Positions 3,548 through 33,432 of a DNA stretch of 33,460 nucleotides are shown here, piece after piece. This stretch comes from Verrucomicrobiota bacterium (GTDB lineage: Bacteria; Verrucomicrobiota; Verrucomicrobiia; Limisphaerales; Fontisphaeraceae). Position 1 is the first letter of the stretch, and each line of letters starts with the position of its first letter. The stretch covers positions 1 through 33,460 of the forward strand of contig JBAXGN010000077.1 of the NCBI GenBank assembly GCA_037139415.1, read 5' to 3'. The notes under the pieces were generated by a model. That model had not been told where the DNA came from. It saw only the letters and a list, made by a program, of their open reading frames with translations, and searched no databases. Position numbers and translations under genes: made by a program.

Positions 3548-3636
3548 GGATAACACCATGCACCGGTATCGGCAGCGGATCAAAGGAACTGAATGTCCCC
3601 AATCTTTGTCCAGAAATGGGGTGTCACAAGAACAAG

Positions 3637-3678
3637 GCAGGAGGCGGACATGGCAAAAAAATTAGCTGGCAGAAAAAT
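3637..3678. repeat. 42-bp direct repeat, copy 1
   Basis: Begins GCAGGAGGCGGACATGGC and ends GGCAGAAAAAT; the same 42 bases recur at 3912-3953 without a visible mismatch. It includes AGGAGG followed by an ATG, but the frame after it is short in both copies. Confidence 0.85.
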
Positions 3679-3911
3679 TATGACCAGAAGATAGAAGCTG
3701 GGAGTTTGGAGTTGGAACGGGGTGGGGAATTAAACCGCTAAACAGGCGAAAAACGCGAAATACATTTGCGGATTGAAAGCCCATCCAGACGCCGTTTGCG
3801 TTCTGTGACAGTTTTCTGCAAAAGCAATTGGGTTCCCATTTTTATGCCAGTTTATTTTTCTGCAAAATCGGCTTCCCATTTTGTTGCTGTTTTCAGTCTC
3901 CCACTGGCAAT

Positions 3912-3953
3912 GCAGGAGGCGGACATGGCAAAAAAATTAGCTGGCAGAAAAAT
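3912..3953. repeat. 42-bp direct repeat, copy 2
   Basis: Exact second copy of 3637-3678, in the same orientation and 275 bp further on. The sequences following the two copies (ATTATGACCAGAAGATAG and ATGAAACCAAAGAAGATAG) are also similar, so the original unit was probably longer. Confidence 0.85.
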
Positions 3954-3990
3954 GAAACCAAAGAAGATAGGAGATTGGAGGCAGGGCACC

Positions 3991-4039
3991 AGTGAACAGT
4001 TATCAGTGAACAGTTATCAGTGAACAGTTATCAGTGAAC
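3991..4039. repeat. 14-bp tandem repeat, 3.5 copies
   Basis: AGTGAACAGTTATC repeated three times (3991-4004, 4005-4018, 4019-4032) plus half a unit (4033-4039), with no mismatches. A period of 14 is not a multiple of three, so it is unlikely to be coding. It lies just downstream of the leftward 86-residue gene. Confidence 0.95.
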
Positions 4040-30649: not shown

Positions 30650-30762
30650 CCTGACCCGGATATATCAGCGAACCCGCGCTCCATTTGCGCATTGCGAAAG
30701 TTCAGCCCACCGGCTATTGAGAACCTGTCGTTCGCGTACGTAAACCCAATGACGTGTTAATC

Positions 30763-32613
30763 ATGAGCAATTCAAACGCAACCTTGCGCTCCCGCTTGAG
30801 CTATGAACCGCAGGCGCTGAAGTTCGGCACCAGCGGACGGCGCGGGGAAGTCATTCACCTGACCCAACTAGAAATCTATATCAACGCGCTGGCGGAATTG
30901 GAATATCTGCGCTCGCTGCCCGCCGGCGAAGGCGGCCTCCGCGCCGGGGACCCGTTTTACTTCGCGTATGATCTGCGCCCGAGTTCCAGCCGGTTCGTGC
31001 CGGAGCAGCAAGGCCGGGGAGAACTTGCGCAGGCCATCGCGCAAGCCATCCAGGATGCCGGGTTGCGCCCGGTCAATCTGGGGGCCATCCCCACCCCTGC
31101 CCTCACCTGTTACGCCCTCGCGCAAGGCTGCGGCAGCATCATGGTCACCGGCAGCCACATTCCGTTTGATCGCAACGGCTACAAAACCAATTCCGCCAAG
31201 GGCGAGCTGTTGAAGCGGGACGAAGCGCCCATCAACGCGCGCGTCGAGGAAGTGCGGGCGCGCGTGTACCGCCAGCCGTTCGCGGACGCGCTGTTCGATG
31301 AGCGCGGCATGTTCAAGACCGGTTCCCGCCCGCTCCCGGCGGCCACCGATGCGGCGCGCCGCTTTTATCATCGGCGTTACCTGGAGTTCTTTGGCGCGGG
31401 CAGCTTGAAGGGCTTGCGCCTACTGGTCTATCAACACTCCGCCGTGGGGCGCGATCTGTTCGTGGAAGTGCTGGAGAGTCTGGGGGCCGAGGTCTTCCCC
31501 GCCGGGCGCAGTGACGCCTTTGTGCCGATTGACACGGAGAACATTGACCAGGCGCAACTGGCGCAGATCCAGCAACTGCTGGACGCCGTGACCGCCCAAC
31601 ACGGGCCGGTACACGCGGTGGTCTCGCTGGATGGCGATAGTGATCGCCCGCTGCTCCTGGGCGTGGAAGCCCACGCCTCCGCCGGCGGCACGCACTATCA
31701 AGCGCGCTTTTACGGCGGCGACCTCGTCGGCATGGTCGTGGCGGAATTCCTGCGCGCGGATGCCGTGGTCGTGCCCATCAGTTGCAACGACGCCATTGAT
31801 CGCGGCCCGTTGCGGGACCGGCTGGAGCCCAAGACGCGCATCGGCTCCCCCTTCGTCATCGCCGGCATGGAAGCAGCGCGCGCCCAAGGCCGCCGCCGGG
31901 TGTGCGGTTGGGAGGCCAACGGCGGGTTCCTCACCGGCTCGGAGGTGGAACGCCAGGGCCGGGTGCTCACCGCGCTGCCCACGCGGGATGCCCTGCTGCC
32001 GATCCTGTGTACGCTCGCCGCCATGCAAGAACAGGGCCTCACCATGGGCCAACTCTTCGACCGCCTGCCCAAGCGCTTCAGCAAAGCCGCCTTGCTCAAG
32101 AATTTCCCGCGCCCGATCAGCCAAAAGATCATCGCCCGCTTCTCGCTGGCGAATGCGGACATTCGCGAACTCGTCATTTCCCCAGGTAGCCGCCGAGGTA
32201 ACGAGGCGGAACCAGGAATTTCGGAATGCGGAACGCGGAATGCGGAATGCGGAACCGGCCGAGGCAACGAGTATTCCGCCATTCGCAATCCGCAATCCGC
32301 AATCTCCGATGTCCGTCTCCTTACCTCGACGGCTACGAGCGCGGATGAAGTTGCCCGCATCGTGCGCGAATTATCCAGCGTGTTCAGCGCCGCCCATGGC
32401 TTTGATGCCGTGGCGAAGGTGAATTACACGGATGGCCTCCGCATCTATTTCCACAACGGGGATGTGGCGCACGTCCGCCCCTCGGGCAACGCGGATGAAC
32501 TGCGCATCTACGCCGTGGCCGACTGCCAGGAACGCGCCAACACCATCGCCCAACTGGGCGTGGCCGAACCGATGGGATTGCTGCGCACGCTGGAAAAGAT
32601 GGTGGCGCAATAA
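30763..32613 (+). CDS. phosphoglucomutase/phosphomannomutase family protein with an in-frame repeat insertion
   Basis: A 616-residue alpha-D-phosphohexomutase that would interconvert sugar 1- and 6-phosphates. The order is: N-terminal KFGTSGRRGEVI, catalytic loop IMVTGSHIPFDRNGYK with phospho-acceptor Ser131, Mg2+ loop SLDGDSDRP (Asp290, 292 and 294 region), sugar-recognition loop GWEANGGF, and C-terminal phosphate-binding VRPSGNADELRIY. The last two differ from the usual GEESGH and RPSGTEP, so substrate is uncertain. Residues about 475-525 come from a 151-bp inverted-repeat element inserted without breaking the frame (SRRGNEAEPGISECGT and onward), between VISPG and SADEVARIV. The start is ATG 30763; a GTG at 30754 is possible. 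Confidence 0.87.
   Translation: MSNSNATLRSRLSYEPQALKFGTSGRRGEVIHLTQLEIYINALAELEYLRSLPAGEGGLRAGDPFYFAYDLRPSSSRFVPEQQGRGELAQAIAQAIQDAGLRPVNLGAIPTPALTCYALAQGCGSIMVTGSHIPFDRNGYKTNSAKGELLKRDEAPINARVEEVRARVYRQPFADALFDERGMFKTGSRPLPAATDAARRFYHRRYLEFFGAGSLKGLRLLVYQHSAVGRDLFVEVLESLGAEVFPAGRSDAFVPIDTENIDQAQLAQIQQLLDAVTAQHGPVHAVVSLDGDSDRPLLLGVEAHASAGGTHYQARFYGGDLVGMVVAEFLRADAVVVPISCNDAIDRGPLRDRLEPKTRIGSPFVIAGMEAARAQGRRRVCGWEANGGFLTGSEVERQGRVLTALPTRDALLPILCTLAAMQEQGLTMGQLFDRLPKRFSKAALLKNFPRPISQKIIARFSLANADIRELVISPGSRRGNEAEPGISECGTRNAECGTGRGNEYSAIRNPQSAISDVRLLTSTATSADEVARIVRELSSVFSAAHGFDAVAKVNYTDGLRIYFHNGDVAHVRPSGNADELRIYAVADCQERANTIAQLGVAEPMGLLRTLEKMVAQ
32186..32336. mobile_element. 151-bp MITE/REP-like element inside the phosphohexomutase gene
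   Basis: The ends form an imperfect inverted repeat: GTAGCCGCCGAGGTAACGAGG (32186-32206) against the complement of 32316-32336, 18 of 21 positions pairing. The inside holds heptamer runs of the kind GCGGAAT (32222-32255) and, inverted, ATCCGCA (32285-32304). No transposase is encoded. It contributes about 50 codons to the host gene without a stop. I see no certain target-site duplication. Confidence 0.7.
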
Positions 32614-33292: not shown

Positions 33293-33432
33293 CGTACCGC
33301 AGACTTCCAAGTCTGCTGTATCGCCGACTTCCCAGTCGGCAGACGGTTTGTCATTTCCCAGCGCGCTCGAATTCCTAACGCCTTGCAGGTTAGGAAACCT
33401 GCGATACAGCAGACTTGGAAGTCTGCGGTACG
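33293..33432. repeat. perfect 32-bp inverted repeat enclosing nested palindromes
   Basis: The arm at 33293-33324 (beginning CGTACCGCAGACTTCC) is exactly the reverse complement of 33401-33432. Each arm itself contains the palindrome GCAGACTT-CC-AAGTCTGC or its complement. The 76 bp between hold GCCGACTTCCCAGTCGGC (33323-33340) and GCAGGTT-AGGA-AACCTGC (33385-33402). The right end runs toward the window edge, so the element may continue. Confidence 0.9.

Follow-up and report, generated by a model that had tools for sequence, protein, structure and literature searches.

A GTAG-type REP dimer read in frame through a phosphohexomutase gene and its dispersed relatives in a Verrucomicrobiota genome

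Palindromic repeats that are read through by genes are already known from Rickettsia and Opitutus. Rickettsia carries palindromic elements (RPEs) of ca. 150 bp, which lie in frame in genes and encode a conserved peptide (PMC10969869, reviewing Ogata et al. 2000, 2002); RPE-4/6 of R. conorii end in the tetranucleotide CGTC (PMC3733652). The same work described intragenic REPs of the GTAG and CGTC types, with most of the intragenic GTAG copies present in the verrucomicrobium Opitutus terrae. In-frame REP dimers encode 20–30 amino acids and clusters 43–82 amino acids, such copies constituting a minority; DNA-repair genes are among their hosts, and many N-terminal copies were set aside as likely misannotated starts (PMC3733652).

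Here we analyse the window, i.e. the whole stretch of 33,460 nucleotides on contig C77 of the 7.9-Mb genome (378 contigs) of an uncultured Verrucomicrobiota bacterium, together with a genome survey based on pattern matches and retrieved sequence stretches. A segment read through by a phosphohexomutase gene of this window (Table 1) is very probably a mobile, non-autonomous GTAG-REP dimer with a heptamer spacer, whose insertion into the stretch linking domains III and IV has been tolerated.

Table 1. Features of the window and in-frame copies of the element elsewhere in the genome (positions refer to the window, contig handles to the genome assembly).
Feature	Location	Strand	Description
Phosphohexomutase-superfamily gene	30754–32613	+	619 aa including the insert; PGM_PMM I–IV (Pfam)
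REP-dimer (BIME/MITE-like) element	32186–32336	+	151 bp; in frame in the mutase, residues ~478–528
Left REP	32186–32210	+	GTAG + hairpin CCGCC-GAGGTAACGA-GGCGG
Heptamer run CGGAATG	32222–32254	+	4.7 copies; occupies the spacer's first half
Probable degenerate internal REP	32252–32275	+	GCCGAGGCAACGAG at 32258–32271; from direct reading against other dimers
Heptamer run, opposite orientation	32281–32305	+	ATTCGCAATCCGCAATCCGCAATC, complement-sense; translated AIRNPQSAI
Right REP, inverted	32312–32336	-	GTAG + hairpin CCGTC-GAGGTAAGGA-GACGG
MidA-like methyltransferase	C124		Internal in-frame copy; ~57–64 residues where homologues have 0–7
BirA	C135		Internal in-frame copy
TatD nuclease	C297		Internal in-frame copy
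Glycosyltransferase-TPR protein	C38		Internal in-frame copy
Mfd	C68		Internal in-frame copy
Ketoacyl synthase	C5		Internal, single REP, different frame
OppA-like protein	C7		N-terminal group
Secretin	C217		N-terminal group
LptD-like	C49		N-terminal group
GH5	C160		N-terminal group
Phosphoesterase	C95		N-terminal group
NHL/Ig protein	C3		N-terminal group
PQQ protein	C14		N-terminal group
Gene on C198	C198		N-terminal group
Putative lipoprotein	C3		N-terminal group

The repeat element and its family

The element opens with GTAGCCGCCGAGGTAACGAGGCGGA and closes with the reverse complement of GTAGCCGTCGAGGTAAGGAGACGGA, the two sequences being identical at 22 of 25 positions. The original prediction of a 151-bp inverted-repeat element in the coding frame with internal heptamer runs is borne out; its inverted ends are also real, their length being 25 bp instead of the 21 bp given there. 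One 25-bp pattern matches both terminal REPs in their opposite orientations at a chance expectation of 0.02 matches per window, and two pattern matches were obtained in none of 100 shuffled windows. The folding energy of the element strand amounts to −46.5 kcal/mol versus −27.7 kcal/mol for shuffles (z −6.3). An Rfam scan of the window produced no matches. Because of the degenerate REP core inside the spacer, the comparison with dimers of 70, 84, 85 and 91 bp suggests a mosaic, in which an ordinary dimer of ca. 85–91 bp (32252–32336) would be preceded by a partial unit.

The REP unit is a GTAG-tagged hairpin composed of GTAG, CCGYC, the loop GAGGTAANGA and GRCGG. Its pattern yielded 60 genome matches with 0 to 1 mismatch and none for the reversed-pattern control, the GTAG start of the copies being fixed by the search pattern with one mismatch permitted. 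Positions 5–9 and 20–24 pair to form the stem, and at positions 8/21 the 65 copies compared have T-A (44), C-G (16) or mismatched (5) bases; this covariation corresponds to the pattern expected for a maintained hairpin. The search for other copies, as recommended in the original prediction, thus recovered ca. 60 of them dispersed over dozens of contigs, and most clusters lie outside genes with two coding flanks, mostly in intergenic positions. They are arranged as single units, as inverted dimers of 70–113 bp and as clusters, compared to 151 bp for the copy in the window. The flanks of the copies are unrelated save for a short preference outside the GTAG (CC at −9/−8, Y at −3 and C at −1), which is what insertion into favoured target sites should produce. 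Sister REP families were found in the same genome by a looser pattern, and the wider family is present in 30 of the 116 genomes searched, which comprise the own genome of the window and relatives from the order; some of them contain ca. 200 copies.

None of the eight Y1_Tnp genes in the 378-contig assembly is a RAYT/Y1 gene flanked by the window REP, so that the mobilising enzyme has to be postulated: the element most probably moves as a single-stranded hairpin by means of a RAYT/IS200-like Y1 (HUH) transposase. Two of the eight genes (on C97 and C147; L061 and L062) are situated near the sister palindrome GTAGCAGCCGAAGTAATGAGGCTC, which is present on one side only; they encode near-identical IS200-like Y1 transposases and are candidate mobilisers of the GTAG family. 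In seven REP-rich relatives, 30 Y1 loci were inspected; a palindrome pair, of the sister type, occurs near L258 alone, and none of the loci is convincing for the window REP.

Further repeats were observed in the window and the genome. A second palindromic repeat of the CAGACTTCCAAGTCTGC type (33293–33432; 49-bp arms, 86% complementary) is located just downstream of the mutase gene, and a similar sequence is read inside an ORF near C82:1-1200 (L240). A tandem repeat with a 396-bp unit (2.2 copies, 98% matches) spans 923–1786, with a diverged part-copy at 2868–2972, and the region 3633–4039 contains two copies of a 46-nt direct repeat (98%), at 3633 and 3908, and after them the perfect 14-bp tandem CAGTGAACAGTTAT in 3.6 copies. 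GCGGAAT heptamer arrays devoid of REP ends occur at C35:44508-44804, C85:80-636 and C29:25633 of the window's genome (G000); some of these arrays are regularly spaced (126 bp, 171 bp) and perhaps represent a separate repeat class.

In-frame copies and their reading frame

Elements that add protein sequence to a gene had been predicted to be rare, which the data do not support: besides the copy in the mutase, the own genome contains at least six further internal in-frame copies with homology support, recognised by coding scores, Pfam matches and homologues, and about ten copies at gene N-termini; the relatives contain many, and such copies are published (PMC3733652, PMC10969869). In the N-terminal group the element either follows the start codon and precedes the hydrophobic signal-peptide core, or lies near the N-terminus; the former position is found in exported proteins at the loci L121, L123, L129, L110, L109, L119 and L137. 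The genome screen yielded no copy whose two coding flanks share a strand but differ in frame. The insert of the MidA-like protein (L105:3055-4401) also holds a second, unrelated repeat, the HPILLPQGGEGARRAVEG region, with matches at several further genomic sites, and two repeat families therefore share one loop of this gene.

The REP unit is stop-free in five of six frames and the typical heptamer spacer in all of them. Despite this freedom, the SRRG/RLLTSTAT frame is used by 20 of the 22 read-through elements, counted as copies with a coding flank in an open frame of 150 codons or more; those on C5 and C233 are read in another frame only. With a chance of 2 in 5 per copy, 20 or more of 22 would be expected with a probability of ca. 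1e-6, provided that each copy counts as independent, and this may be untrue. The bias hints at selection for an open frame without proving it.

We consider it possible, though less likely than not, that the element is a protein-coding palindrome in the manner of the Rickettsia RPEs, whose frame SRRG..SAIRNPQSAIS..RLLTSTATK is kept by selection. The peptide would either be harmless in proteins and leaders or aid the retention of the element, and this proposal adds to the insertion explanation rather than opposing it. Besides the frame bias, it is favoured by a near-identical peptide (SAIRNPQSAIS..RLLTSTATK) common to ten proteins and by several N-terminal copies, e.g. that on C7, in which no ATG, GTG or TTG separates the element from the hydrophobic core; where such a start codon is missing, the element is translated if the leader is. 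On the other hand, the sister REPs of three related genomes (G038, G081, G099) are read about equally in all five open frames, although these counts are blurred by many antisense open frames in the GC-rich DNA. The composite peptide is nearly restricted to the window's genome, whose copies may stem from a few sources with the frame and the target preference already fixed. A crude version of such a preference, the motif G-N-R-N4-GG after the element, was rejected as the cause of the bias, as it occurs in all coding phases; weak as the motif is, it does not favour the observed phase of the SRRG/RLLTSTAT codons (706 of 4295 sites). The bias would thus reflect either the spread of a small number of sources that share a favoured target phase, or selection on the peptide. 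A stronger formulation appears somewhat more doubtful still, namely that the palindromic GTAG-REP/heptamer element is a coding cassette with one frame kept in about 20 genes and its peptide under selection. Its sites would be interdomain loops and leaders in front of signal-peptide cores, and selection of the kind proposed for RPEs would act in an unrelated REP lineage.

The insertion in the mutase gene

The host protein matches all four PGM_PMM domains, domain II with 26.9 bits being below the Pfam cut-off of 29.3 bits. Its nearest solved relative is the Brucella phosphoglucomutase (pdb-code: 4hjh; profile match with E 8.9e-111), onto which the AlphaFold model superposes with a Z of 50.4 and 2.0 Å over 467 residues. 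The four domains together with the fold place the gene in the phosphohexomutase superfamily. Domains I–III extend as far as residue 442 and domain IV begins with residue 538, in agreement with the predicted location of the insert between the third and fourth domains.

The homologue comparison proposed at the outset was performed with ca. 80 mutase homologues from other genomes, aligned with the homologues of an earlier search. The segment is absent from every homologue whose alignment reaches the insertion site, and the original prediction, which homologues carrying it would have refuted, withstands this check; the match ends at ISPG on the left side and restarts at SADEVARIV on the right side. 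In between, the homologues have ca. 17 linker residues, compared to ca. 50 residues of the element in the window protein, and the distance between fixed anchors is 126 residues versus ca. 93 in the close family. The anticipated 50 extra residues are thus correct for what the element encodes, whereas the net gain over the homologues is ca. 33. As the element length of 151 bp corresponds to 1 mod 3, the reading frame would not have survived an exact insertion by itself; either part of the original linker must have been lost or a short stretch duplicated, at the time of insertion or later.

The AlphaFold model (28 sequences) has a mean pLDDT of 85.9 and values below 50 at residues 479–489 and 491–526. 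These residues closely coincide with the insert, between the strand 470–476 and the helix 530–543, and the insert is consequently predicted to be a disordered loop between domains III and IV, although AlphaFold confidence is often low regardless where no aligned homologue shares the segment. The stretch 479–526, predicted to be unstructured, also accords with the supposition that the site tolerates a loop.

The long loop added to the mutase could point to a decaying pseudogene whose frame is open by chance. We regard this as very unlikely, given 619 stop-free codons (30754–32613) that include the element, strong hexamer coding scores in the identical frame on both of its sides (1.02 and 1.14) and the retention of family-invariant columns. 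An old native linker of lineage-specific low complexity, which arose by heptamer expansion and was never mobile, might be considered in view of the variable linker length among homologues and the heptamer runs found elsewhere in the genome without REPs (31 of 49), but it was rejected as extremely improbable because the segment is present in no homologue and both of its ends are the dispersed, inverted REP that also occupies unrelated intergenic sites throughout the genome.

In the preferred scenario of a mobile insertion, a dispersed REP dimer would have inserted into the mutase linker, and the gene would have stayed open owing to the five stop-free REP frames and the stop-free heptamer spacer. 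Counting against it are the negative search for a transposase gene flanked by this REP and the length of 151 bp, for which a compensating change has to be supposed. The element would be translated as a disordered loop of ca. 50 residues that, judged from the sequences, replaces ca. 17 linker residues of the homologues. The mutase presumably still works, both its activity and the neutrality of the loop being assumed here. Gene-breaking copies were probably lost, which would leave behind the intergenic copies and those tolerated in frame in loops and leaders.

Comparison with described palindromic repeats

The closest likeness is to the GTAG REP superfamily, with which the window family shares the hairpin with a GTAG foot, the high dispersed copy number and the inverted dimers with spacer; this assignment is based on the features described in PMC3733652. 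Also in common are the imperfect hairpin of 20–40 bp, the mostly intergenic location, the minority of copies in frame inside genes and a DNA-repair host, here Mfd. The window family differs by its heptanucleotide spacer, one dominant frame and many copies in signal-peptide leaders. Neither a near-single frame nor a heptamer spacer nor a placement in signal-peptide leaders was found described in the open-licence papers on GTAG REPs. Since read-through as such is established, only two traits of the family are unusual, namely its bias towards one frame and its placement in front of signal-peptide cores.

The BIME/REPtron systems with a RAYT (TnpA-REP) are similar in combining two inverted REPs with a spacer and in the presence of Y1 transposase genes in the genome, and dissimilar in that no RAYT gene flanked by the window REP was found. 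The heptanucleotide STRR of cyanobacteria are dispersed tandem runs of 7 bp. The heptamers of the window's genome may resemble them in this respect, whereas many of the copies here combine such runs with REP ends. Annotation of these genomes should take into account that extended low-complexity inserts of repeated type, like the corresponding extensions of leaders, derive from REPs.

With the Rickettsia RPEs the element shares a palindrome of ca. 150 bp located in frame in unrelated genes and a conserved peptide; it differs by its GTAG tag, compared to CGTC in R. conorii, and by its origin from a different phylum. The likeness would lie in the way of working, and membership in the sequence families RPE-1 to RPE-10 is not claimed. 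Whether the RPE-encoded peptide is under selection has been an open point since these elements were described. If the frame bias holds, the family analysed here would offer a test case for selection on an element's peptide outside Rickettsia. The Verrucomicrobia-type GTAG REPs constitute a second lineage of small mobile palindromes that regularly supply functional-looking genes with additional peptides in the manner of RPEs.
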